Below, in pieces: positions 7,444-34,512 of a stretch of DNA of 64,000 bases. This DNA comes from an uncultured Sphingomonadaceae bacterium (lineage in GTDB: Bacteria > Pseudomonadota > Alphaproteobacteria > Sphingomonadales > Sphingomonadaceae). Under the pieces are notes generated by a model. The model did no database searches, was not told the DNA's origin, and saw only the letters and a program-made list of their open reading frames with translations. Made by a program: the position numbers and the translations under genes. Position 1 is the first letter of the stretch, and the number at the start of each line of letters is the position of its first letter. Location of the stretch: the NCBI GenBank assembly GCA_947497315.1, contig CANMFX010000003.1:62001-126000 (forward strand), given 5' to 3'.

Positions 7444-8349
7444 ATGACAACCGCTTCTACATCACCTTACAAGCTGGCCAGCGCGCGGGATTTGTTCGCG
7501 CTGACCAAGCCGCGCGTGATGTCGCTGGTGATTTTTACGGCAATCTGCGGGTTGATGGCGGCTCCCGGTTCCATTCATCCGATTATTGGTTTCACGGCAA
7601 TATTGGCGATTAGCCTGGGTGCTGGTGCATCCGCGGCGCTGAACCAATGGTATGAACATGATATCGATGCAGTGATGAAGCGGACCGCAGGTCGGCCTTT
7701 GCCGGCGGGGCGCATGGACCGCGAAACCGCGCTGCATTTCGGAGTAGGGTTATCAGTTTTTTCTGTTCTGCTGATGGGAGTCGCGGTCAATTGGCTTAGT
7801 GCTGCGATATTGGCCTTCTCCATTTTCTTCTATGCCGTGATTTACACAATTTGGCTGAAGCGCAGTACGCCGCAGAATATTGTGATTGGCGGTGCGGCAG
7901 GCGCTTTCCCACCGGTCATAGGTTGGGCGGCCGTTACCGGTGACGTCACGTTGATGCCGGTACTGCTGTTCGCGATCATTTTCTTTTGGACGCCCCCACA
8001 TTTCTGGGCACTCGCGCTGTTTGTGAACAGTGATTATTCCAAAGCGGGTATCCCCATGATGCCGGTTGTAGCAGGTCGAAAATCGACGCGCAGACAGATC
8101 GCAGGTTACAGCCTGATACTTACCGCCTGCGCTGTTGCGCCCTTTGCCATGGGAATGACCGGGGCGGTTTATGGGGTAACGGCGATTGTGCTGAGCCTGG
8201 CCTTCACTCTGTTATCCTTCCGCGTGGGTGTCAGCGGAACAGAGAACCCCAGTGCAATGCAGGCAGAGAAGCATTTGTTTAAATTCTCCATCGTCTATCT
8301 TTTCGCCTTGTTCGCCGCGCTGGTTGCAGACAGGATGATATTTGCATGA
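7444..8349 (+). CDS. ctaB: Protoheme IX farnesyltransferase (heme O synthase)
   Basis: This polytopic UbiA-family prenyltransferase adds a farnesyl group to heme b, giving heme O, the precursor of the heme a used by CtaD. The Asp-rich prenyl-diphosphate motif [15 protein letters not shown] and the following RPLPAGRM are intact. The length of 301 residues is normal. It lies 90 bp after ctaD, and its stop overlaps the start of the next small gene (ATGA at 8346-8349), indicating coupled translation. Confidence 0.95.
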
Positions 8350-21153: not shown

Positions 21154-21272
21154 CAGCGGGTTTCGTCACCAAATTTTTCGCTTTTGATTACTCCTAACAT
21201 ACTGAAATCATATTGTTTTCGGCAGAAATGGCGCTTGTCCGCCGTGTTTTAATGACTCTTCAATGACAAAAA

Positions 21273-21313
21273 TATTACAGTTATGTTGCAACATAAGTCA
21301 CAAAAGTGTAATA
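21273..21313. promoter_or_regulatory. Nested inverted repeats upstream of the small exported-protein gene
   Basis: A perfect 16-bp palindrome, TTATGTTGCAACATAA (21281-21296), is flanked by 7-bp inverted arms TATTACA (21273-21279) and TGTAATA (21307-21313). The set ends 27 bp before the start codon at 21341, in a 187-bp AT-rich intergenic region. A weak promoter (TTGCAA, 17 bp, TAATAA) overlaps it. It is probably a repressor or activator site; the regulator is unknown. Confidence 0.5.
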
Positions 21314-21340
21314 AAAGGTCAAAGAAACAGGAGAGTGAGT

Positions 21341-21715
21341 ATGAAAAACGCGAGGATTATAGCCGTTGCCATGGGCTTGACCATGGCGGCCGTGCCCGCA
21401 GTAGCACAGACGCAAGAGGGTGAAATTGGCTATGATAGAGGTGCATTAGCCTATGATGCCCTGATGGCCGGCGACAATGAAGCGGCTGTAGCAAAGCTGG
21501 AAAGCGGAAAGCTTACTGATCCTGCTGTCATGATCAATTTGGGGCAGGCTTATGCTCGTACCGGACGTTCCGGTGATGCAGCAAAAATGTTCGTGGCCGC
21601 TATGAACAGCAATCGCAGTTTTGATCTGGTGCTTGCCGATGGCCAGGTGATTAATTCTCGCAAGGCGGCTGAGATGGCGTTGAACAATCTGAATGGACGG
21701 TTGGCTTCCCGCTAA
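21341..21715 (+). CDS. Small exported TPR-like protein
   Basis: The 124-residue protein has a Sec signal peptide (about residues 1-23, ending PAVAQ). Two or three short helical repeats follow, reminiscent of TPR units (ALAYDALMAGDNEAAVAKL and MINLGQAYARTGRSGDAAKM). It should be periplasmic and likely binds another protein. The start at 21341 is supported by ACAGGAG upstream. It precedes the lipoprotein, TonB receptor and type II secretion genes on the same strand but is closed off by its own terminator. Confidence 0.75.
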   Translation: MKNARIIAVAMGLTMAAVPAVAQTQEGEIGYDRGALAYDALMAGDNEAAVAKLESGKLTDPAVMINLGQAYARTGRSGDAAKMFVAAMNSNRSFDLVLADGQVINSRKAAEMALNNLNGRLASR

Positions 21716-21769: not shown

Positions 21770-22015
21770 GTTTAACAATATTTACACTGCAGCATTTTTG
21801 CACCGCAGCATGAAAAGCAGAGCGCTTTTGCGGCTTCCAAAGCAACTGCAACAATCCTGAAATATTATTGTCTCCAAAGAGTCATGCAAACAGCATCGGC
21901 GGGTCATTTGCCGCGCCTAGTGCCCAAGTCCGAAGGCGATGGGGGCATCTATGATTCGTTTCCACATCATCTGATCTGAAATGTTTGAAATCAGTAATCT
22001 GCGGAGACTTTTTCC

Positions 22016-23536
22016 ATGTTAAATAAGCAAATTCGTTCAGTTCTTTTTGCTGGTGTTGCAGCAATGGCGGTAACGGCCTGTGGTGCCGATGATGTGGCTT
22101 CCCCAGGCGAAGGCACTATTGTCCTGCCAGCTCCGACCCCAACACCAACGCCTACTCCGACGCCAACACCTACCCCGCCAACTGGTGGCCCGGCAGCTGA
22201 CTGTCCGACAGGCACAGCCAATGTGGGGACAATCACGACCGGCAACGGTGAAGAAGTTCGCAACTGCCAGATATCTGGTGTCATAACCAGCAACCTGACC
22301 GTACCCAAACGGGATGGCACGATCTATTCCTTTTCCGGCGCAGTCGAAGTTGGCGTTGATGGCGGAACTACCGGCATCATGACAATAGAGCCCGGTGTTG
22401 TCATTTTTGGTTCATCCGGCGGCGATTTCTTGTTGGTGAACCGCGGCTCGCAGCTATTTGCAGAGGGTACTGCGGCGGACCCAATCATCATGACATCACG
22501 TCAGAATATATTGGGCACGACCGGCGTCAACAGCATCGGTCAATGGGGCGGTGTCGTCATTTTGGGCCGTGCACCAATTTCTGACTGTGCGACAGGCGGA
22601 GCGTCCAACCCGGGCGGTACCCGTACCGACTGTGAAGCGATTGTCGAAGGGCCATCTAACGCAGTGTATGGCGGGACCTTGCCAGCCGATTCCAGCGGCC
22701 GGATGTCTTACCTGCAGGTGCGTTACCCCGGTTTCGAAGTGTCGCCCGGCAACGAGCTTAACGGTATCACTTTGGCCGGTGTTGGCAGCGGTACATTCTT
22801 CCAGAATATTCAGGTCCACAACAGCTCGGACGACGGTGTCGAATGGTTTGGTGGCCGGGTAAACGGCAAAAACCTTGTGATGACCGGCATTGATGATGAC
22901 TCGGTTGATTCTGACTCGGGTTTTCAGGGCAATAACCAGTTTGTTCTGGTGGTGCAGCGCGCCGGCGGCGGTGACCATGTCATGGAAGCGGATTCCAATG
23001 GCGATGAAGATGCCGAACCACGCCAACGCCACCGTTTGGCCAATGTCACCTTTGTTTCCAGCGGCCAAGACCATGTCATATTGTTGCGCGGTGGCGGTGA
23101 CTATGAGTTCTATAACAGCGTATTCAATAGTCCGGCAGCCTGTATCGATATCGACAGCGCGACCACCATTCAGGCGGCTGGTGCAGCGGCGGACGAAAAT
23201 GGACCTCCGGTATTCGAATCCCTGTTTATGAGCTGTGCAACGGCATTTGTGGATGATGGCAATATCACGGCTGCCCAGATCCAGACGCTGTTCAATGCCG
23301 GTAGCAACAACACTGAATCAGGGACATCGACGCTGGCAAATTCCGCAGCGGCTTTCGCCTTTATCAACGGTGCAACCGAAAATGCGGTTACCCCGTTTGC
23401 AGTCAGCGGTGTGGACGTTTTCTTTGAGGATGTCTCCTATATCGGTGCCGTGCAGGACGCGAATGATACGCGCTTCCAGGGTTGGACCTGCGGTCTCTAT
23501 GCGGATGATTGCGCGACCGCTCCCACAATTGGCTAA
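22016..23536 (+). CDS. Large lipoprotein with Thr-Pro linker and probable beta-helix domain
   Basis: The 506-residue protein starts with a lipoprotein signal; the lipobox VTAC makes Cys22 the lipidated residue. A (Thr-Pro)n linker of about 16 residues follows at about 40-60, then a long domain rich in Gly, Asn, Val and short beta-strand patterns such as GQWGGVVILGRAPI. This looks like a right-handed parallel beta-helix. Several Cys pairs suggest disulfides. I do not know its function. Proteins of this style with QWGG-type motifs often sit beside TonB receptors. It lies 78 bp before such a receptor gene and is likely at the cell surface or outer membrane. Confidence 0.75.
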   Translation: MLNKQIRSVLFAGVAAMAVTACGADDVASPGEGTIVLPAPTPTPTPTPTPTPTPPTGGPAADCPTGTANVGTITTGNGEEVRNCQISGVITSNLTVPKRDGTIYSFSGAVEVGVDGGTTGIMTIEPGVVIFGSSGGDFLLVNRGSQLFAEGTAADPIIMTSRQNILGTTGVNSIGQWGGVVILGRAPISDCATGGASNPGGTRTDCEAIVEGPSNAVYGGTLPADSSGRMSYLQVRYPGFEVSPGNELNGITLAGVGSGTFFQNIQVHNSSDDGVEWFGGRVNGKNLVMTGIDDDSVDSDSGFQGNNQFVLVVQRAGGGDHVMEADSNGDEDAEPRQRHRLANVTFVSSGQDHVILLRGGGDYEFYNSVFNSPAACIDIDSATTIQAAGAAADENGPPVFESLFMSCATAFVDDGNITAAQIQTLFNAGSNNTESGTSTLANSAAAFAFINGATENAVTPFAVSGVDVFFEDVSYIGAVQDANDTRFQGWTCGLYADDCATAPTIG

Positions 23537-23613: not shown

Positions 23614-26310
23614 ATGACGAAGCGGGCATCTTTGGTCACCAGTCTATTTTTGAGCACGGCTTTGTTTTCGCCTGCTGCATTGGCACAAGCCACCTCAGAG
23701 GATGCGGCCGCTCAGCCGGGCTCTGCGGATGATGCTCCGGAAAAAGATGTCGATATTTCTGCGCCTGGTGGTGATTTCAGCGGAGAGATTATCGTTCGCG
23801 GCAAGTTTATTCCGAACCCGATCCGGGCGACGTCAGAGGTTGTTTCGGTTCTCGGTGAAGAAGAAATCGCCCGCGCCGCCGATGGTGATATTGCAGGCTC
23901 CCTGCAGCGCGTAACCGGTCTCAGTGTTGTTGGCGGGCGCTTCGTTTTTGTCCGCGGCCTGGGTGAGCGTTATTCTCTGGCGTTGCTCAACGGTCTGCCG
24001 CTGCCTTCTCCCGAACCGTTGCGCCGGGTTGTACCGCTCGACCTTTTTCCGACCAGCGTGATCGCTTCCACCGTTGTCCAGAAAAGCTACTCGGTAAACT
24101 ATCCCGGTGAGTTTGGCGGCGGTGTGATTAATCTGACGACCAAGGCGACGCCGGATGAACCATTTTTGAAATTCAGCTTTAGCGTGAGCGGTGACAGCGA
24201 AACCACGGGGAAACTCGGTTACACCTATGATGGCTCGGATCTCGATATCCTCGGTTATGACAGTGGGGTTCGTGATATCCCAAATGGTCTGGGACAGGCT
24301 ATTGCCCAGAATGTACCTATTTCAGTTGGTGATAATTTCACCAGTCTGGACCTGCAGAATTTTGCGGCCAGCCTGAACAATGCGGAAACTTCCCTGATCC
24401 AGAGGAACAATGATATTCCGGCCAATTTCTCAGCAGAAGTCACCGGTGGTACAACCATAGATGTCGGAGATGCCTTTGTCGGTATCATTGCGACTGCCGG
24501 TTTTGAGAATAGTTGGCGCACGCGCGGCGGTGTGCAGCAAACATCGCAGGGTATCGTCAATATTGACGGTACCGAAGGTTTACGGCCTGATCAGGACTTT
24601 AATTTCCTGACCACGGAAAACCGCATCATCGTCAATGGTTTACTGGCCTTATCTGCGGAAGTTGGTGAACATAAATTCCGGTTCACTAATCTCTATATTC
24701 ATGACACGGTCAAAGACGCTTCGATCAAGCAAGGCATTGATGCGATCAACGTCGATGAAGAAACCCTGCTCAATCAAGGCCGTACGAGCTGGTTTGAACG
24801 ACAGCTGTTTACAACGCAGTTCGTCGGTGAACTGAAATTTGACGAAATTTCTGTCGATCTGCGCGGTAGCTATGCGAACTCCAAACGCGATGCGCCTTAT
24901 CAGCGGACATATAGCTATGCCTTTGATCGCCTTTTCGCCAATGATTTCGTCAATGATCTGACGTCCCCAGGCGAGTCAGCGCGTATCCGCTTCAGCGACT
25001 TGAACGATGACGTCTACGGTGCCGGGATCGACATTGGCTATGAGACCAATATCGGCGTGCCCGTCAATTTCACTGCGGGTTACAGCTATTATCTCAATGA
25101 CCGGGACGCACAGCGCCGGGATTTCCGCTTCGTACCTTCCAATGGACTGCCCAGCCCATTTGATCAGCAGCGGATCGATTTCCTGCTGTCCGACCTCAAT
25201 GTCTTCACGCAGGAGATTGAACTGCGCGAGGTGGCTGCGCAGACCTCTGTACCGGCCTATACCGCAGAGCTGGAAATCCATGGCGGCTATGGTCAGGTGG
25301 ACGCGGAGCTGGCTGATGGCCTGCGTCTCAATCTCGGTGTGCGTTATGAAGATGCACAGCAAGAAGTCCTCCCCATCACGCTGACAGGGGGGCAGGCTTC
25401 TGTCGCGACGGGTCTGGACAATGATTATTGGTTGCCCGCCGGTACGTTGACCTGGAATTTTGCGGATGACATGCAATTTCGTCTCGCGGCGTCCAAAACC
25501 GTTGCCCGTCCGCAATTTCGTGAACTGGCACCGCAACAGTTTCTTGACCTTGATACCGACCGGACCTTCATCGGTAACCCGTTGCTTGAGGATAGCGAGT
25601 TGATCAATGTAGAGGGCCGTTTTGAATATTATATCGGCCGCGGCGAACGGATCACACTGGCCGGCTTTTACAAGGATATCGACAATCCGATCGAAAATGT
25701 CGCCTTTGTTCAGGGTGGGGGGACGTTATTCACCGGTTTCTCCAATGCTCCAAAGGCGCGACTTTATGGGGCAGAAGTGGAGCTTGTGAAATATTTCCCG
25801 CTCTATGACATATTCGGCGGCAAGTTCTTTGAAGATCGGCGCTTGATGCTGGCGGCAAATTACACTTACACCAAGTCAGAAATCCAGGTTGCCGACGGCG
25901 ACACCGCAATTAATCCGGTGACGTTGCAACCTACCTCGGCCCTGAACCTGTTTGATGATGGTGACCGTCTCACCGGCCAGTCGACCCATGTCGCAAACCT
26001 GCAATTCGGGATGGAAGCAGAAGAAGGCCTCTCGCAGCAGACGATTTTGCTGACCTATAACAGCCCTCGGGTTACGGCGCGTGGACCTCAGGATCAGCCG
26101 GACCTGATCGAACGGACCGGTTGGCAGATCGATTTTGTGATGCGGGAACAGCTTGAAATTGCCGGGCAGGAATTTGAGCTGAAATTTGAGGCGCGTAACC
26201 TGTTGGGCACTGATTACCGCGAATCCCAGACGCTGAATGATACTCGGATCATCAACAATGGTTATGATGTGGGTACACGCCTGTCGATGAGCATCGGGAT
26301 CAATTTCTGA
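23614..26310 (+). CDS. TonB-dependent outer membrane receptor
   Basis: This 898-residue receptor has a signal peptide (cleaved near AALAQ), a low-complexity Asp/Ala-rich segment and a TonB-box-like GEIIVRG. A plug domain (about 60-190, including LQRVTGLSVVGGRFVFVRGL and GGGVINLTTK) is followed by a long beta-barrel ending in the typical aromatic residue (GINF). There is no extra N-terminal signalling domain. The substrate is unknown. It follows the large lipoprotein and precedes gspC by 106 bp on the same strand. A GAAGGAAAA ribosome-binding site supports the start. Confidence 0.9.
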   Translation: MTKRASLVTSLFLSTALFSPAALAQATSEDAAAQPGSADDAPEKDVDISAPGGDFSGEIIVRGKFIPNPIRATSEVVSVLGEEEIARAADGDIAGSLQRVTGLSVVGGRFVFVRGLGERYSLALLNGLPLPSPEPLRRVVPLDLFPTSVIASTVVQKSYSVNYPGEFGGGVINLTTKATPDEPFLKFSFSVSGDSETTGKLGYTYDGSDLDILGYDSGVRDIPNGLGQAIAQNVPISVGDNFTSLDLQNFAASLNNAETSLIQRNNDIPANFSAEVTGGTTIDVGDAFVGIIATAGFENSWRTRGGVQQTSQGIVNIDGTEGLRPDQDFNFLTTENRIIVNGLLALSAEVGEHKFRFTNLYIHDTVKDASIKQGIDAINVDEETLLNQGRTSWFERQLFTTQFVGELKFDEISVDLRGSYANSKRDAPYQRTYSYAFDRLFANDFVNDLTSPGESARIRFSDLNDDVYGAGIDIGYETNIGVPVNFTAGYSYYLNDRDAQRRDFRFVPSNGLPSPFDQQRIDFLLSDLNVFTQEIELREVAAQTSVPAYTAELEIHGGYGQVDAELADGLRLNLGVRYEDAQQEVLPITLTGGQASVATGLDNDYWLPAGTLTWNFADDMQFRLAASKTVARPQFRELAPQQFLDLDTDRTFIGNPLLEDSELINVEGRFEYYIGRGERITLAGFYKDIDNPIENVAFVQGGGTLFTGFSNAPKARLYGAEVELVKYFPLYDIFGGKFFEDRRLMLAANYTYTKSEIQVADGDTAINPVTLQPTSALNLFDDGDRLTGQSTHVANLQFGMEAEEGLSQQTILLTYNSPRVTARGPQDQPDLIERTGWQIDFVMREQLEIAGQEFELKFEARNLLGTDYRESQTLNDTRIINNGYDVGTRLSMSIGINF

Positions 26311-26416
26311 CCAGCCGCTTTGAGGTTCATGGCCGCGAACGGTTTGCTGTAATTTTTCTGTCATCAATGAGTCGCAGGTTGGTCACCAAACCGTTATAGC
26401 CACTCTGGGAAGCAGA

Positions 26417-27268
26417 GTGCGGGGATTCGTGGATATTCAATCTTCTAACCAGTTTTTGGCAATGGGCCGGAAGGTACCGGTGCTGGGCCTTTATTCGGTC
26501 CTGCTGGGCTTACTGGCGGTTTTTTTGGCGGTTCAGGCAATCCGGCTGATCTGGGTTGTCGTAACGCCACTGGGACCGATGGGAGATTGGCAGGCACGGG
26601 AAGTGCAGGTTTTATCGCCACAATCGCGGTTGGCGCTGTTCAGCAGTTTCGATCCATTTTATCGTACTGGTCCGGCCGCAACAGCCAATGTCGTCACGTC
26701 GTTGCAGCTCACCCTATATGGCATCAGAATGAACGAGGGCTCCGGCCTCGGATCGGCGATATTGGCCGGGCCGGACGGTGTGCAGGAAAGCTATGCTGTG
26801 GGTGAGGAAATCATGTCCGGTGTCAAGCTGGATGTGGTCAATTTCGATCATGTTGTGATTGATCGCAGCGGTACGAAGGAAAGCCTGTATCTGGATCAGT
26901 CCGTCCCGGCAGAAACCGTGGGCGGCGAGTTTGATACGGATCAGGCCGTGACCTCTGGCTCATCATCAGGCCCTGCTGGCACTACGCCAGCAGCCGAGGC
27001 GATCGCCAATGCGGTTGACCTTGCGCCGCGCAGTGCAGGTGGCAAGGTGACGGGTATCGTTGTGTCACCACGCGGTGATGGCGCCCTGTTCCGTGCAGCC
27101 GGTTTCCGGGATGGTGATATCATCGTCTCGGTTAATGGTCAGCAGGTCTCCTCGACCAGCGATATTGCGGCACTGAAACGCCGTATTGTACCGGGTGCAC
27201 GACTCTCTGTAGAAGTAGAACGCGGCGCTGATACTGTTCCCCTGGCAATTAACATGGGGACACAATGA
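26417..27268 (+). CDS. gspC: Type II secretion system protein C
   Basis: GspC is the inner-membrane clamp linking the assembly platform to the secretin. It has a short cytoplasmic N-terminus, one membrane helix (about residues 20-43), a periplasmic homology region (about 65-160) and a C-terminal PDZ domain (about 205-283), with a typical GFRDGDIIVSVNGQQV segment. The start is GTG at 26417, preceded by GGGAAG; a second in-frame GTG lies 12 bp on. Its stop overlaps the start of gspD (ATGATGA), showing translational coupling. Confidence 0.9.
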   Translation: MRGFVDIQSSNQFLAMGRKVPVLGLYSVLLGLLAVFLAVQAIRLIWVVVTPLGPMGDWQAREVQVLSPQSRLALFSSFDPFYRTGPAATANVVTSLQLTLYGIRMNEGSGLGSAILAGPDGVQESYAVGEEIMSGVKLDVVNFDHVVIDRSGTKESLYLDQSVPAETVGGEFDTDQAVTSGSSSGPAGTTPAAEAIANAVDLAPRSAGGKVTGIVVSPRGDGALFRAAGFRDGDIIVSVNGQQVSSTSDIAALKRRIVPGARLSVEVERGADTVPLAINMGTQ

Positions 27269-29472
27269 TGAACCACGCACTTACGAAAATGGCTGCCAGA
27301 TGGGCAGTATCCCTTGCTATATTGGGACCTGTCGCGCTGGCTCCGGCCTTTGCCCAGCATAGCCTGAACGTTCGTGATGCTGACATCAGAGCCTTCGTGC
27401 AGGATGCGGCGCGGGTTACTGGCCGCACATTCATTGTTGATAGCCGGGTACAGGGCAAAGTATCTGTGGTCACTGACCGGCCATTGTCTCGCTCAGAATA
27501 TTTCGAGATTTTTCTGTCGACATTGCGGGCAAATAATCTGGTCGCCATCCCGACCACGGGCGGTGCCTATCGTATCCAGCCGGCCGACGGGGCTGCGACC
27601 CAGCCGACCCGGATTGGCACGCGGCAATCGGCGGCGAACCAGTTTGTCACCGAAGTTGTCCGGCTGAAATCCATCGAAGCGACGGCGGCTTTGGAAACTC
27701 TGCGCCCGTTGATCAGCAAGCAGGGCGCGATTACCGCCAACCGCAACGCAAACAGCCTGGTGATTGTTGACTATGCCGACAATATCCGCCGGGTGCGGGA
27801 ACTGGTCCGCCGGATTGATAGAGACAGCGCAGCGTCCACCATTGTGAACCTCAGAAATGCAGGCGCCCGGGAAATTGCCACATCGCTGCAAACACTGGCT
27901 CAACAAGGCGGCAATGGCACAGCTGCGCCGGTTACGGTTGTCGCGATTGACAGTAGTAACAGCATCGCGCTGCGCGGTGATCCCAGTGCGGTGGCCAAAT
28001 TTGTGTCGATGGCGCGGGAGCTTGACCAGCGCGCTGAATCAGGAACCGAAATCCGTGTCCATCAACTGGACTATGCCAATGCGGAACAATTGCTGCCAGT
28101 GATTGAGCAGTTAATGGGGCAGGGTAGCGCGGGCTCAACCGCCGCGGCCCCGTCATCTGTTGCACCGGCATCTGGGAGTAATGGAGGCGGCAACGGTGGT
28201 TCTGCGCCTGCGGTAACGCCGGTATCAGCAGGCGGCAGTTCCGGTGGCGGGATTGCCCGTCATGGTCCGGCGGTGGTCACACGCTATGAAGGCACGAACG
28301 CCATCATCGTTGCGGCCAATCCCGATGTACAGCGGATGATTGGTGAATTGATCCGGCAGTTGGATACGCGTCAGGAACAGGTATCGGTAGAAGCGATCAT
28401 CGTCGAGATTTCTGACTCACTGGCGCGCGAACTGGGCATCCAGTTTTTGATCGGCGGCAAAGACACACCTTTTGCAGTAACCAATTTCTCCAACGCTGGT
28501 CCCAACATTGTCGATATCGCCGGCGGTTTGCTCGCAGATCAGTTTGACACGACAACCACCACCACCACCGATACGGCCACCACAACCACTACAAATAGTG
28601 CTGTTGGCGACAAACTGCTGGAAAATGCCGCCGATGCGATTTTGGGTGCGCGCGGCTCCTTCACCGGTTTCGCGACGACGCTGGGCGGTGATACGATTCT
28701 GGGCACGATCATCAACGCGGTGCAACGGGATTCCGATTCCAACCTGCTTTCCACACCATCTTTGACAGTTAACAACAACCTCAAAGGCAGTATCTTGTTC
28801 GGACAGGAAATTCCTGTTTCCACGGGCGAGGCCTTGTCCAATAATTTCGACAATGCATTTCGGACGATACAACGTCAAAATGTCGGTATCGAGCTGGAGG
28901 TCACACCGCAGATCAATGCCGGGGATGAAGTGCGGTTGGAACTGCGTCAGGAGGTCAGCTCAATTGCCGGACCGGTTTCGAATGACTTTAATGAACTGAT
29001 CATCAACAAGCGCGAGATAAAAACCACGGTCACTGTGGGCGACGGAGAAATCATCGCATTGGGCGGCTTGCTGGACGATAATGAACGCCGCACGATTGAG
29101 AAAATCCCGTTTCTGGGTGACATTCCGCTGATCGGAGAGCTGTTCAAGTCGCGTGGCAAAGAACGGATAAAAACCAATTTGATGGTGTTCATCCGACCTA
29201 AAATTCTGCGCGACCGCGCCGATGCTCGGGCGTTTTCGGCTCGCCGCTATGGCTATATCAGGGGGCGTCAATTGCGCCGCGATCCAGAGCTTGAACCGTC
29301 AATTGATGTGCTGGTTCGTGACTATATGGGAGCAGTGCCTCCGGTCGCGGAAACCCAGCCGGGTGATCAGATTATTTATGCGCCGGGTGCAGTTACCCAA
29401 CCCCAGAATAATGAAGCTTTGCAGCAAGTTCCGGTTTCACCCAGCAATCCCGGTTCGGAGAAGGATGACTGA
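27265..29472 (+). CDS. gspD: Type II secretion system secretin
   Basis: GspD forms the outer-membrane channel. The 735 residues contain a signal peptide (ending PAFAQ), the N0 domain (LNVRDADIRAFVQ), N1-N3 domains and the C-terminal secretin domain with GSILFGQEIPVSTGE and GGLLDDNERRTIEKIPFLGD. Insertions include a Gly/Ser/Ala-rich linker within N3 (around residues 290-330) and a poly-Thr stretch near residues 430-445 in the secretin domain. No pilotin gene is apparent here. It overlaps gspC and gspE by a few bases. Confidence 0.95.
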   Translation: MMNHALTKMAARWAVSLAILGPVALAPAFAQHSLNVRDADIRAFVQDAARVTGRTFIVDSRVQGKVSVVTDRPLSRSEYFEIFLSTLRANNLVAIPTTGGAYRIQPADGAATQPTRIGTRQSAANQFVTEVVRLKSIEATAALETLRPLISKQGAITANRNANSLVIVDYADNIRRVRELVRRIDRDSAASTIVNLRNAGAREIATSLQTLAQQGGNGTAAPVTVVAIDSSNSIALRGDPSAVAKFVSMARELDQRAESGTEIRVHQLDYANAEQLLPVIEQLMGQGSAGSTAAAPSSVAPASGSNGGGNGGSAPAVTPVSAGGSSGGGIARHGPAVVTRYEGTNAIIVAANPDVQRMIGELIRQLDTRQEQVSVEAIIVEISDSLARELGIQFLIGGKDTPFAVTNFSNAGPNIVDIAGGLLADQFDTTTTTTTDTATTTTTNSAVGDKLLENAADAILGARGSFTGFATTLGGDTILGTIINAVQRDSDSNLLSTPSLTVNNNLKGSILFGQEIPVSTGEALSNNFDNAFRTIQRQNVGIELEVTPQINAGDEVRLELRQEVSSIAGPVSNDFNELIINKREIKTTVTVGDGEIIALGGLLDDNERRTIEKIPFLGDIPLIGELFKSRGKERIKTNLMVFIRPKILRDRADARAFSARRYGYIRGRQLRRDPELEPSIDVLVRDYMGAVPPVAETQPGDQIIYAPGAVTQPQNNEALQQVPVSPSNPGSEKDD

Positions 29473-31037
29473 TGAAAATCGCGAAGGGAACAGATGCAGA
29501 AGTTTCCGGCGATGATGAAAAGCCTGTGGGTGAAGAACCGGCATCTCCGCCGCTTCTGGATATTCCCTATGCGTTCGCGCGCGATCAAGGCGTGCTATTG
29601 AGGCGGACAGATGGCAAACGGCTGTCAGTTGCGATGCGTGAAGGTGCTAATCCTCAGGCCTTGCTGGAACTGCGCCGCTATCTGGCGATGCCCTTTGATG
29701 TCGATCTGGTATCCCCCGACGCATTTGAAGAAATTCTGTCCGATCATTACGCCATGGATGGCAGTGCGGCCGCCATGGCCGGGGACATGAGCCTCAGCAA
29801 CGATGCACTGGATGATATTGCCGGAGATATTCCCAGCGCGGAGGATTTGCTGGACAGTGCCGACGATGCACCAACCATCCGGTTGATCAATGGGATTATT
29901 GCGGAAGCCGCGAGACAGGGTGCTTCGGATATTCATATCGAGCCCTATGAAACAGGTCTGGTTGTGCGGATGCGCGTCGATGGCGTGTTGGAGGAAAAAT
30001 TGCGCATGCCGCCGCATGTCGCGTCCGTCATTGTCAACCGGATAAAGGTCATGGCACGGCTGGATATTGCAGAGCGCCGAATACCGCAGGACGGCCGGAT
30101 TAGCTTGACCCTTGGCGGGAAGCTGTTGGATGTGCGTGTCTCGACATTACCCAATCGGGCGAATGAACGTGTCGTTATGCGGATATTGGACAAGGAAAGC
30201 GCGGCGATATCGCTGGACCTTCTGGGCATGTCCGAAACAACTCATGAGATTTTGACCGAAGCCCTGTCAGAGCCCAATGGCATCATCCTGGTCACCGGAC
30301 CCACCGGTTCTGGTAAGACCACAACATTATATGCCGGTCTGAAACAGCTGAACGACGGCAGCCGTAATATCCTGACGGTTGAGGACCCGGTGGAATATGC
30401 CATTGAAGGCATTGGCCAGACACAGGTGAATGCCAAAGTCGGCCTGACATTTGCCGCCGGTCTGCGCGCGATTTTGCGGCAGGATCCCGACGTTGTCATG
30501 GTTGGCGAAATTCGCGACCGGGAGACAGCGGAAATTGCCGTACAGGCATCTCTGACCGGCCATCTCGTGCTCTCTACGGTGCACACCAATGATGCAGTTG
30601 GCGCGATTACCCGGATGCGCGATATGAAGGTCGAGCCATTTCTGCTGGCCTCCACATTGCGCGCTGTGGTCGCCCAGCGGCTGGTGCGCAAGCTGTGCCC
30701 GCATTGCCGCGTTCCGATCCAGGCAGATGGCAGCCTGGCCTCCCTGCTTGGCTTTGACAACGGCACTGTGGTGTACCGTGAAGTCGGCTGTGATGAATGT
30801 AACCATACCGGTTTTCAGGGGCGTATTGGTGTTTTTGAGGCGATCCGCGTCGATGAAACAATTCGCAAACTGATCAATGATGGCGGTGATGAAGCACGCA
30901 TCGCGGCTCATGCGTTCCTCAAGAAGCCCAATCTGGGTTCTGCGGCGCGTGCGTTGGTCCGTGAAGGTTTAACCACCGCAGAAGAAGGAATTCGCATATC
31001 GCGCCGTGACGCGCTGGATGAGCAGGTTGATGCCTGA
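29472..31037 (+). CDS. gspE: Type II secretion system ATPase
   Basis: GspE is the cytoplasmic hexameric ATPase that powers pseudopilus assembly. The 521 residues hold an N-terminal GspL-binding region and the RecA-type core: Walker A GPTGSGKTTTLY, an Asp box and Walker B DPDVVMVGEIRDRETAE, and a His box GHLVLSTVHTND. A four-Cys zinc motif (CPHC with CDECNHTG) is present. Its ATG overlaps the gspD stop (TGATG), and its 3' end overlaps gspF by 8 bp. Confidence 0.96.
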   Translation: MKIAKGTDAEVSGDDEKPVGEEPASPPLLDIPYAFARDQGVLLRRTDGKRLSVAMREGANPQALLELRRYLAMPFDVDLVSPDAFEEILSDHYAMDGSAAAMAGDMSLSNDALDDIAGDIPSAEDLLDSADDAPTIRLINGIIAEAARQGASDIHIEPYETGLVVRMRVDGVLEEKLRMPPHVASVIVNRIKVMARLDIAERRIPQDGRISLTLGGKLLDVRVSTLPNRANERVVMRILDKESAAISLDLLGMSETTHEILTEALSEPNGIILVTGPTGSGKTTTLYAGLKQLNDGSRNILTVEDPVEYAIEGIGQTQVNAKVGLTFAAGLRAILRQDPDVVMVGEIRDRETAEIAVQASLTGHLVLSTVHTNDAVGAITRMRDMKVEPFLLASTLRAVVAQRLVRKLCPHCRVPIQADGSLASLLGFDNGTVVYREVGCDECNHTGFQGRIGVFEAIRVDETIRKLINDGGDEARIAAHAFLKKPNLGSAARALVREGLTTAEEGIRISRRDALDEQVDA

Positions 31038-32244
31038 CTTTTCCTACACGGCAATCGATCCGAAGGGCCGGGAGAAAACCGGCAGGCTGGCAGCGGAAAG
31101 CAACGATGCTGCCCGTGCCAAACTTGCCGAGCGCAATTTTTATGTCGTGAAGGTGGAAACCGCCCAAGGCGTGGAAGCAAAGCCTGCCCGTTCGCTTTTT
31201 GGACCCAAAAAACTCCGTGCCAAGGAACTGACCCTGTTCACCCGGCAATTGTCGTCTCTTGTCCAGGTCAGCCCGCTTGAAGAAGCGCTGCGGACCATTG
31301 GCAGCCAGAATGAAAAAGAACATGTCCGGGCGCGCATCGGTTCGGTCCATGCCGGTGTCATGGAAGGGCAGCGGCTGGCTGAGGCGATGCGCCGCGAACC
31401 GGCGAGCTTTCCGCCGCTTTACCGCGCTATGATTTCGGCCGGAGAGAGCTCGGGAACATTGCCAGACATTACCGAAAGGCTCGCCAGCCTGCTGGAGCGT
31501 CAGGCCGAGATGCGCGGTAAGCTGATCAGCGCACTGGCCTATCCCATCGTATTGGCGCTGGTGGCGATTTTGGTGGTCGCTCTTTTGATGATTGCCGTCG
31601 TGCCCAAAGTGGTCGAGCAATTTGATGACGTGAATCAACAGCTTCCCTTTGTCACGCGGCTGGTAATCGGCATATCCGATTTTCTCGCCAATTGGTGGGG
31701 CGCAATTTTGGGCGTGATCTTCATTGTCGGCTTTGCCGGTTGGCGGGCGTTGAAAGACCCGAAGGTCAGATACCGTTTTGACAGTTTTCTGCTGCGGATT
31801 CCCTTTTTGGGCAGATTGCTGCGCGATTTGAATGCCGCGCGGCTGGCGAGAACCTTGTCCACCATGGTTGCAAGCCGCTTGCCGATATTGGAAGGGTTGC
31901 GGCTGACGACCAACACGATCAGCAATAGCGTGCTGCGCAAAGCGTGCGAGGACATGGCGGAAGCGATCAGGGGTGGCGGAAGTCTGTCCAAGGCGCTCAA
32001 GAATACTGGCGTTTTCCCGCCGATGCTGGTCTATCTCACCGCCAGCGGGGAAGCATCGGGACAGCTTGACGAAATGCTGGCCCGGGCTGCCGATTATCTT
32101 GAACGCGAATTTGATAATTTCAGTTCCACCGCCTTATCATTGCTGGAACCGCTGATCATTGTTTTGCTGGGCGGTGTTGTTGCGGTGGTTATTTTGGCTA
32201 TATTATTGCCAATATTGCAGCTTCAGAATCTTGCCGGACTATAG
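31030..32244 (+). CDS. gspF: Type II secretion system inner membrane protein F
   Basis: GspF is the polytopic platform protein. The 404 residues carry two repeated cytoplasmic GspF domains (about 70-190 and 275-395), each followed by membrane helices, and the typical N-terminus MPDFSYTAIDPKGREKTG. I chose ATG 31030 because it gives that family N-terminus; an in-frame start 24 bp earlier is less likely. The first 8 bp overlap gspE. Confidence 0.95.
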   Translation: MPDFSYTAIDPKGREKTGRLAAESNDAARAKLAERNFYVVKVETAQGVEAKPARSLFGPKKLRAKELTLFTRQLSSLVQVSPLEEALRTIGSQNEKEHVRARIGSVHAGVMEGQRLAEAMRREPASFPPLYRAMISAGESSGTLPDITERLASLLERQAEMRGKLISALAYPIVLALVAILVVALLMIAVVPKVVEQFDDVNQQLPFVTRLVIGISDFLANWWGAILGVIFIVGFAGWRALKDPKVRYRFDSFLLRIPFLGRLLRDLNAARLARTLSTMVASRLPILEGLRLTTNTISNSVLRKACEDMAEAIRGGGSLSKALKNTGVFPPMLVYLTASGEASGQLDEMLARAADYLEREFDNFSSTALSLLEPLIIVLLGGVVAVVILAILLPILQLQNLAGL

Positions 32245-32266
32245 GGCCGGGTTGATAGGAAAATAT

Positions 32267-32752
32267 ATGCTCAAGCTTTTATACAATCTCTTCACCGACA
32301 TGGGGCGTCCACCTGCACGTGGTGACAAGAAGAAACCGAAACCCAACGGCTTCACGCTGGTCGAATTGATGGTGGTCATTTTCATTCTCGGTCTTCTGAC
32401 GACGGTGGTTGTCATCAATGTGCTGCCGAGTCAGGACCGTGCGATGGTTGAAAAGGCGCGGGCCGATATCGCCACTTTGGGGCAGGCGCTGGAAATGTAC
32501 CGGCTCGATAATCTTTCCTATCCCGCCTCGTCCGACGGTTTGGCGGCGTTGACCAGCGCCCCTGCATCACTGCCGCCATCGGCGCGCTATCGGCAGGGCG
32601 GTTATATCAAGAAGCTTCCCGATGATCCGTGGGGACGGCCGTATCAATATGATAATCCGGGACGCAATGGGCCGGGTTTTGATCTCTATTCACTGGGCGC
32701 GGACGGTGCCCCGGGCGGCGAAGATGACAATGCGGACATTTACGCGGAATAG
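32267..32752 (+). CDS. gspG: Type II secretion system major pseudopilin
   Basis: GspG is the main subunit of the pseudopilus. The prepilin peptidase site is PNG followed by FTLVELMVVIFILGLL, with Glu at +5. The C-terminal part has LPDDPWGRPYQY, DLYSLGADGAPGG and DDNADI, the calcium-binding region of the family. Odd point: the leader before the cleavage site is 28 residues if translation starts at ATG 32267 (TAGGAAA upstream), longer than the usual 5-15; an internal Met (codon at 32300) would give 17. It is the only pseudopilin gene in the operon. Confidence 0.92.
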   Translation: MLKLLYNLFTDMGRPPARGDKKKPKPNGFTLVELMVVIFILGLLTTVVVINVLPSQDRAMVEKARADIATLGQALEMYRLDNLSYPASSDGLAALTSAPASLPPSARYRQGGYIKKLPDDPWGRPYQYDNPGRNGPGFDLYSLGADGAPGGEDDNADIYAE

Positions 32753-32840
32753 CCAAATTGCCAAAGGTGACATCGCCACCAAAATTGACTAGCTAACCGC
32801 TACAGACGCAATAAAGTTTTTCAGCCGAGTCGGGGAGGTC

Positions 32841-32906
32841 ATGTTGGAACAAAATCCGTTGCTGCCTCTTTCCATTCGTCGATCGATCCGGGCCATAGGC
32901 GGCTAA
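32841..32906 (+). CDS. Short ORF coupled to gspL (possible leader peptide)
   Basis: A 21-codon frame starts at ATG 32841 just after CGGGGAGG and ends in TAATG, where the stop overlaps the gspL start. The peptide (start MLEQNPLLPLSIRRSI) is basic, with no clear family. It lies in the 153-bp interval between gspG and gspL where gspH-I-J-K would normally be. It could be a leader that couples translation into gspL, a remnant of the lost genes, or chance. Spacing from the purine run to ATG is short. Confidence 0.35.
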   Translation: MLEQNPLLPLSIRRSIRAIGG

Positions 32907-34033
32907 TGTCGGCATCCAAGCTCTTTGTGACAGTTTTTCCAGGCTCAGAGGCGCGAGCCCTGCAATGGTGGCTTGTGATGGACGGCGTACTGGAGGCCAA
33001 AGGTTGCGATACTGATCCCTTGCTAGCTGCTGGCTTGAAGCTGCCTTCGGCCGAAAATGAACCGATTGTCCACATCGCGCTGATGCCCACCGCGCTTGGC
33101 ATCGTACGCTGGCATGAACCTCTGGATGATATGACCGAGCAGCAGGCATTGGCAGCGGCTCGCCTAGTGGCGCAGGAAAACAGCCTCGATGTGGAAAACC
33201 TCCATATAGCGGCTGTTGCCGATGACGCGGGGCAGGTGGCAACCGCATCGGTTGGCAAGGATGTTATCGCCAGCGGACTGGCTCGACTTCAAGCCCTTGG
33301 CCTTGATCCCGATGTAATTGTCCCGGCCGGCTGGATGATCGCGCCCGAAGAAGACACCGTCGTGGAGGCCGATTTCGGTTTTGAAAAATTGCTGCGGGCG
33401 CAGCAGATGATCATCCCCGATGAACCGTCCTTGCGCGCACATCTTGTCGGTGACAGCAGCGTCACTATTTTGCCGGAAGCTTCGGTTGATCAGGCGCTCG
33501 TCAATGCCGCGGACAACAGCACGCTGAACTTGCGTTCCGGTGCTTTCGCCAAAAAAGCCGACAGGTCGATGACTGCGCCGCAAAGGCGGCTACTGGGCTG
33601 GCTGGCCGTGGCTGCTCTGGTAATCTCTTTGCTGATTCCGGTTGTTCAACTGGTGAAGTATCACTGGGCTATAGCGGATACGGAAACGGCTGCATTGGCC
33701 GCGGCTGAACCGGTGATCGGGCCTGTAGAAAGCGTGGATGAAGCAGACCGTCTGCTCAACGAACGATTGATCCGCGAAAATCGCGGCAACATAGCCTTTT
33801 CGGTGCCAGCATCCGCTCTGTTTTCGGCCGTTCAGCAGACCCAGGGGGTTTCAATAGAGCGGATCAGCTATCGCAAGGACGGCACTGTTTTGGCGGGTCT
33901 GACGGCGGTGAGGAATGAAGATATGAACCCGGCACTGATCGCGCTTCAGAATGCGGGATTCGTGATAACCGCGACGCCCCGGACCGATGCGACAGGATCG
34001 TCCAAGGCAGATATTACGGTGCGTGCGCCATGA
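32906..34033 (+). CDS. gspL: Type II secretion system protein L
   Basis: GspL links the GspE ATPase to the membrane platform. The first 220 or so residues form the cytoplasmic actin-like domain, with LPSAENEPIVHIALMPTALG and the family-like WHEPLDDMTEQQALAAARL. One membrane helix (about 231-250, LLGWLAVAALVISLLIPVV) and a periplasmic ferredoxin-like domain follow. The 375 residues are normal. It overlaps gspM by ATGA at 34030-34033. The assignment rests on domain layout and operon position, since GspL sequences diverge strongly. Confidence 0.85.
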   Translation: MSASKLFVTVFPGSEARALQWWLVMDGVLEAKGCDTDPLLAAGLKLPSAENEPIVHIALMPTALGIVRWHEPLDDMTEQQALAAARLVAQENSLDVENLHIAAVADDAGQVATASVGKDVIASGLARLQALGLDPDVIVPAGWMIAPEEDTVVEADFGFEKLLRAQQMIIPDEPSLRAHLVGDSSVTILPEASVDQALVNAADNSTLNLRSGAFAKKADRSMTAPQRRLLGWLAVAALVISLLIPVVQLVKYHWAIADTETAALAAAEPVIGPVESVDEADRLLNERLIRENRGNIAFSVPASALFSAVQQTQGVSIERISYRKDGTVLAGLTAVRNEDMNPALIALQNAGFVITATPRTDATGSSKADITVRAP

Positions 34034-34512
34034 TCGCTGCCCTGAAAGACTGGTTCCAGGCGCTTAGTCACCGCGAAAAGGTAATGATCGGGATATTGGG
34101 CGTTCTGGTTGCCTTGGTTGTTGGGTATTACGCAATCGTCGCGCCATTCATCAACGCCTATGTGTCGGCTCAAAAAAGCTATGCGGATGCCATTGAAAGC
34201 CAGGCCCGGATTGAGGCCAAAGTGGCGGCATTGACTGCACCGGCAGACAAGACGGTAAGGCCCGTGACCGGCCCGTTGGACGTTTTCATCAGCCAAAATG
34301 CCGGGGAAGCCGGCTTCGCAGTCGGGCGGCTGGATCCGCAGACCGATGGAACGGTTAGATTGGCGATTGATTCTGCCAAACCGACAGCCCTGTTTGGTTG
34401 GCTGGCAACGCTGGAAGCCCGCGGTATATCTGTCGAGGAACTCGCGGTTAATCCCGGAGGTAACGAAACCGTTACCGCAACTATATTGTTACGGTCTGCA
34501 AAACCAAATTAG
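34030..34512 (+). CDS. gspM: Type II secretion system protein M
   Basis: GspM is the bitopic partner of GspL. The 160-residue protein has a short N-terminus (WFQALSHREKVMI), one membrane helix (about 19-39), a coiled segment and a small periplasmic domain. LSxREKxMI before the helix is the typical GspM start. The gene is coupled to gspL and is the last of the cluster; no gspN follows, and a convergent desaturase gene begins only 4 bp beyond. Confidence 0.88.
   Translation: MIAALKDWFQALSHREKVMIGILGVLVALVVGYYAIVAPFINAYVSAQKSYADAIESQARIEAKVAALTAPADKTVRPVTGPLDVFISQNAGEAGFAVGRLDPQTDGTVRLAIDSAKPTALFGWLATLEARGISVEELAVNPGGNETVTATILLRSAKPN

Follow-up and report, generated by a model that had tools for sequence, protein, structure and literature searches.

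The 64,000-nucleotide stretch of DNA analysed here (the window) carries an operon for a type II secretion system (T2SS), ordered gspC-D-E-F-G-L-M, that encodes none of the minor pseudopilins GspH, GspI, GspJ and GspK. All four of these genes are present elsewhere in the same genome, in two displaced pairs, and the split is conserved among relatives. We assign a probability of about 0.93 to the reading that this is one complete, conventional T2SS whose genes are dispersed, a state common to the window's genus.

The gene calls for the locus, at window positions 26417-34512, were made from open reading frames (ORFs) and from Pfam and NCBIfam profiles (Table 1). They bear out the original prediction for this DNA, which had described gspC-D-E-F-G followed by gspL-M, a 153-bp interval between gspG and gspL, and no gspH-K. 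The same prediction had held all genes to be tightly coupled except at that interval; adjacent core genes do overlap and the G-L gap stands, but gspF and gspG are also separated, by 22 bp. It was correct, too, that the locus lacks gspN and any prepilin peptidase gene; these lie at C3:138 kb and C2:550 kb (C denotes contigs). The window's gspL is homologous to the gene that occupies the gspL slot in unbroken operons.

The genome (G000) comprises 3.42 Mb in 9 contigs and is listed as 100% complete, and the window corresponds to C3:62001-126000. A search of this genome for the prepilin N-methylation motif returned GspG, GspH, GspI and GspJ over the cut-off, four matches in all, and one further match (E 6.84) below it. 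Besides GspG, the matches form a tandem pair at C1:689.2-689.8 kb and a single site at C3:533 kb, where gspK was recognized by profile. Genes overlap by 4 bp within each pair, gspH-gspI and gspJ-gspK; the latter lies ~439 kb from the window locus on the same contig, and the former is on a different contig. Together with GspD, GspE, GspF, GspG, GspC and GspM (GspC by Pfam only) and a prepilin peptidase, the genome-encoded GspH-K make up a complete set spread over several distant loci and conserved in the genus. The original prediction had proposed exactly such a genome-wide check with GspH/I/J/K profiles and the motif, and had offered two outcomes. Its suggestion that the genes are elsewhere and shared holds as to place, on C1 and at C3:533 kb, whereas sharing finds no support, as only the G, H, I and J prepilins exceed the cut-off.

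Relatives were collected with a GspF search of named genomes, from which the best 80 of 324 confirmed loci were used. Eighteen of them (L014-L030 and L036), with GspF 80-98% identical, form a genus-like set whose members are named Sphingorhabdus, Parasphingorhabdus, Sphingopyxis or unplaced Sphingomonadaceae/Sphingomonadales. We take this set to be Parasphingorhabdus-like, a label based on the name of L024 and on general taxonomy. In all 18 loci gspL directly follows gspG (L023 ends inside gspL), which bears on the comparison with related genomes that the original prediction had proposed. Among the 62 other GspF-centred sphingomonad loci, 58 carry an unbroken G-H-I-J-K-L-M series, counting L070, where the profile labels of H and I are interchanged. 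Three of the remaining four (L037, L060 and L079) are cut by contig ends, and the fourth, L091 of Sphingosinicella sp. CPCC 101087, has G and L directly joined and H-I-J-K together at another place (L122), apparently a second, independent split. The operons of other Sphingomonadaceae (L031-L093 except L036 and L091) consist of homologues of the window's genes, arranged alike within the operon, but differ in that H-I-J-K stand between G and L (58/62). The split is thus a trait of the window's Parasphingorhabdus-like genus.

The displaced genes recur with similar regularity. N-methylation matches were obtained in 47 of 60 genomes, and GspK in 44, the window's own genome included; for the 31 genus-mates in this set, some with incomplete assemblies, the figures are 31/31 and 30/31. 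Because the genus genome sets overlap (for example, G063 matches G009 in its positions, and G070 matches G011), they are not separate samples. Nine genus genomes (G000, G006, G010, G016, G020, G021, G023, G025 and G031) were read at the displaced loci. In all nine, gspJK is flanked by a dioxygenase gene and a leucine-dehydrogenase-like gene, and gspHI is next to an enoyl-CoA hydratase gene, these three names being a reading of the sequences and no more. The window's own genome conforms, with one extra ORF between gspK and the dehydrogenase gene and with gspHI adjoining the hydratase gene on C1. An inverted repeat, TTGCAG...CTGCAA with ~13 bp spacing, lies between the hydratase gene and gspH (L007:7130-7175) and is present in 9/9 aligned genus genomes. 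Several genus members have eight prepilins. One of these, G070, carries a second T2SS-like operon (L135:6005-15595) that, as read from its ORFs, begins with E-F-G and ends with a secretin and a K-like gene.

If the dispersed genes work as in established T2SS, prepilin peptidase would process the pseudopilins, I-J-K with H would form the tip, and this tip would prime the GspG pseudopilus on the F-L-M platform.

FastTree trees of 35 rows (34 for L-M, which omits G032, a genome of another genus in the same family) were used to compare the ancestry of core and displaced genes. In the D-E-F, G-H, J-K and L-M trees the genus groups with Sphingorhabdus, Novosphingopyxis and, where present, G032, with support of at least 0.965. 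A foreign origin of the displaced genes was considered and rejected, since the H-I and J-K trees join the genus to the relatives that its core genes indicate; the one exception is G032, which the H-I tree sets apart.

Taken by itself, the window locus, devoid of any minor pseudopilin gene, could suggest a reduced T2SS running on GspG alone without a tip, the second outcome offered by the original prediction. This is extremely unlikely, as gspH, gspI, gspJ and gspK all occur elsewhere in the genome, score over their NCBIfam equivalog cut-offs and recur across the genus. An assembly gap or misassembly at the G-L junction, which had been named as a possible refutation, is the least probable explanation, close to negligible: we found no evidence in its favour, the junction is interior to a 738,860-bp contig, the order is identical in 18/18 other assemblies, and the single-contig genomes G010, G025 and G031 show the same split.

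It is also very improbable, though a little less so, that the displaced H, I, J and K proteins serve another filament, such as a type IV pilus or a second T2SS, with the window's system having at best a share in them. The lack of linkage of gspHI and gspJK to the core block would fit such an assignment, as would the genus members with eight prepilins and the second operon of G070. However, the matches are H, I, J and K equivalogs, the trees of H-I and J-K are in broad agreement with those of the core genes, and the window's own genome has no second prepilin set of the T2SS class over the N-methylation cut-off. Sharing with a type IV pilus was rejected in particular, given that no further prepilin exceeds this cut-off in the genome. 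Only one other secretin is encoded besides gspD; it lies with the shorter of two peptidases at C3:238-241 kb, a region that we take to be a Tad/Cpa locus.

Several observations weigh against a single complete, dispersed T2SS. GspH exceeds its NCBIfam cut-off by only 1.4 bits, and GspL is a weak profile match that scores slightly below both curated cut-offs. The H-I tree returns the same group minus G032 (support 0.962), the GspC tree has support of only 0.68, and branching within the group varies between trees.

The surroundings of the displaced genes bear on how the dispersed state arose. Both the dioxygenase and the dehydrogenase gene flank the operon at 39 of the other 62 loci (singly, 49 and 42, counts that are limited by locus length) and at 0/18 genus-like loci. 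Since the same two genes enclose the whole operon in these relatives, gspJK occupies an old operon site. In G032, C-D-E-F-G-H lies beside a TonB receptor gene, I-J-K occupies the dioxygenase/dehydrogenase site, and a third locus holds L-M-N (L105, L106 and L136). Operons beside a TonB receptor gene and a relative of the gene for the window's 506-amino-acid protein (see below), without the dioxygenase gene, were found at L076, L086 and L037; the L037 locus breaks off within gspK.

We give about even odds to the proposal, compatible with a dispersed but complete system, that the split arose by operon duplication and complementary gene loss and not by excision of pieces from one operon. The copy at the dioxygenase/dehydrogenase site would have kept JK (IJK in G032), and the other copy CDEFG-LM (CDEFGH in G032). 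Because JK is found at the shared site in the genus but IJK in G032, the break points differ, and duplication with complementary loss fits better than a single excision; operons also occur at both settings in relatives. Against this, we saw no genome that carries both copies in full, no search was made for pseudogene remnants, and the route of HI to its present site is left unexplained. In three genomes of Novosphingopyxis and Sphingorhabdus with the operon elsewhere, no empty operon site was identifiable, the best dioxygenase relative being only 39-43% identical, which also counts against duplication.

Where the operon is unbroken, the closest in-frame gspL start overlaps the gspK stop by 4 nt in 56 of 58 cases. 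In one subclade of the genus, a mini-ORF of 19-21 codons is present in the G-L interval at 14/14 loci (12 distinct sequences, as two locus pairs are identical there), preceded by a ribosome-binding stretch in which 4 of 20 sites vary. At 12/14 loci the stop of the mini-ORF overlaps the start of gspL, including two variants, TAGTG and TGATG, that keep both signals. In the other subclade, the end of gspG lies close before gspL. We infer that the subclade's mini-ORF takes over from gspK as the coupled upstream cistron, so that in the window the mini-ORF at 32841-32906 would feed ribosomes into gspL.

Such coupling must be set against the two loci in which the mini-ORF stop sits two codons earlier, upstream of the gspL start. 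The mini-ORF also has no third-position bias, with 5, 6 and 7 variable sites at the three codon positions in codons 1-11 and 10, 11 and 10 in codons 12-22; as the positions vary alike, the peptide may be unimportant. That the frame is open says little by itself, because another frame of this stretch is also open in 8 of the 12 distinct sequences and the third in 4. The interval shows no RNA structure (z +1.27) and no terminator, and a promoter scan gave one weak sigma-70-like match versus 0.3 expected. The conserved block before gspL was rejected as a repeated element, as it has one copy in the genome and window with up to 3 mismatches allowed.

Dispersed T2SS are already known, and the present case adds another partition; its novelty is modest. 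Acinetobacter is described as having a complete T2SS in five distant clusters, with the arrangement kept in the genus; it lacks a dedicated peptidase for its pseudopilins and relies on the type IV one (PMC4713064, PMC9952577). On that account both systems are dispersed and genus-conserved, although the partition differs and the lineage is unrelated. Likewise, the Legionella Lsp genes are placed at five chromosomal loci (PMC6617341), but with lspGHIJK in one operon, whereas the window's genus has G, H-I and J-K at three places. A colony-morphology screen in one Sphingomonas includes single gspL and gspH mutants (PMC11340318). We found no literature on type II secretion in Parasphingorhabdus, and no title on this split among the top entries of the open-licence literature.

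With the displaced genes counted, the system no longer seems to break the rule that an I-J-K tip is required for a T2SS, and the case warns that locus-based annotation may call a complete machine reduced. It further provides a natural case of operon fission within one family, comprising split genomes, unbroken relatives and the differently split G032, in which H-I and J-K have each remained an overlapping pair and gspL follows a candidate replacement leader.

Table 1. Features of the window and of the displaced T2SS loci. Plain coordinates are window positions; L and C coordinates refer to loci and contigs.
Feature	Position	Strand	Evidence or remark
506-amino-acid protein	22016..23536	+	lipobox-like start (by eye); no Pfam/NCBIfam match over cut-off
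TonB-dependent receptor	23614..26310	+	directly upstream of gspC; PF00593 106.8 bits, PF07715 41.4 bits
PHO-box-like array	21248-21291	minus	score 21; before 150-amino-acid ORF (21263-21715), array reversed
PHO-box-like array	21846-21889		score 20; upstream of 506-amino-acid protein and receptor
PHO-box-like array	26347..26390	+	11-bp repeats, upstream of gspC; 4-unit score 22/28
gspC	26417..27268	+	PF11356 79.1 bits, cut-off 27; NCBIfam TIGR01713 81.6, under cut-off 101.6
gspD (secretin)	27265..29472	+	TIGR02517 543 bits, cut-off 351
gspE (ATPase)	29472..31037	+	TIGR02533 643 bits, cut-off 630
gspF	about 31030..32244	+	TIGR02120 482 bits, cut-off 424; start picked at MPDF
gspG (major pseudopilin)	32267..32752	+	TIGR01710 166 bits, cut-off 88.85; genome's only GspG
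G-L interval	32753..32905	+	site of gspH-I-J-K in unbroken operons
mini-ORF, 21 codons	32841..32906	+	conserved ribosome-binding stretch; stop overlaps gspL start by one base
gspL	32906..34033	+	Pfam T2SSL 25.3 bits, cut-off 25.5; TIGR01709 54.7, cut-off 65
gspM	34030..34512	+	PF04612 96.3 bits, cut-off 27.8
gspH	L007:7199-7687 (C1, ~689 kb)		NCBIfam 81.4, cut-off 80; Pfam agrees
gspI	L007:7684-8109 (C1)		NCBIfam 78.5, cut-off 44.35; Pfam agrees
gspJ	L008 ORF 7932-8624 (C3:533 kb)		true start probably near 7998; NCBIfam 128.9, cut-off 64.85; Pfam agrees
gspK	L008:8621-9610 (C3:533 kb)		NCBIfam 248.7, cut-off 130; Pfam agrees
gspN	C3:138 kb, ORF L112:4976-5713		T2SSN match, profile search
prepilin peptidase	C2:550 kb		full-length, 258 amino acids, A24
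second prepilin peptidase	C3:240 kb		shorter

Upstream of gspC the window carries genes for a 506-amino-acid protein and a TonB-dependent receptor. Caulobacter crescentus is reported (PMC2996285) to have gspC-N in alphabetical order, with genes for a hypothetical protein and a TonB-dependent receptor immediately upstream of gspC, a likeness to the window in the position of these genes. The same paper reports that phosphate starvation triggers T2SS secretion of the lipoprotein ElpS; as gspE/gspL are expressed in both rich and poor medium, it does not show phosphate control of the machine itself.

A scan for PHO-box-like arrays was scored with a consensus PHO-box unit. The array before gspC has the best 4-unit score in the window (1 of 127,922 positions). 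All 12 genus-like loci scanned with gspC score 19-23 before that gene, against a maximum of 17-18 in 50 shuffles of each, and in many unbroken operons the score there is at background. Among 1,160 tiles from the window's own genome, each 200 bp long, 3 reach a score of 20, and 54 reach 17. No array above background was found before gspH or gspJ, where the two strands score 14/15 and 17/15 in the own genome and the scores are 13-17 in each of eight relatives; the own-genome 17 near gspJ covers the dioxygenase start codon.

The array-bearing T2SS neighbourhood may possibly form a phosphate-starvation unit, and phosphate control of the core block is offered as a hypothesis only. It is doubtful that the split itself is regulatory, with the core block under PhoB through the array before gspC and H-I and J-K under other control, such that tip supply would set the number of machines and the leader cistron would restore the gspL coupling lost with gspK. 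By the same consensus, the three best separate arrays of the window all cluster at the T2SS neighbourhood.

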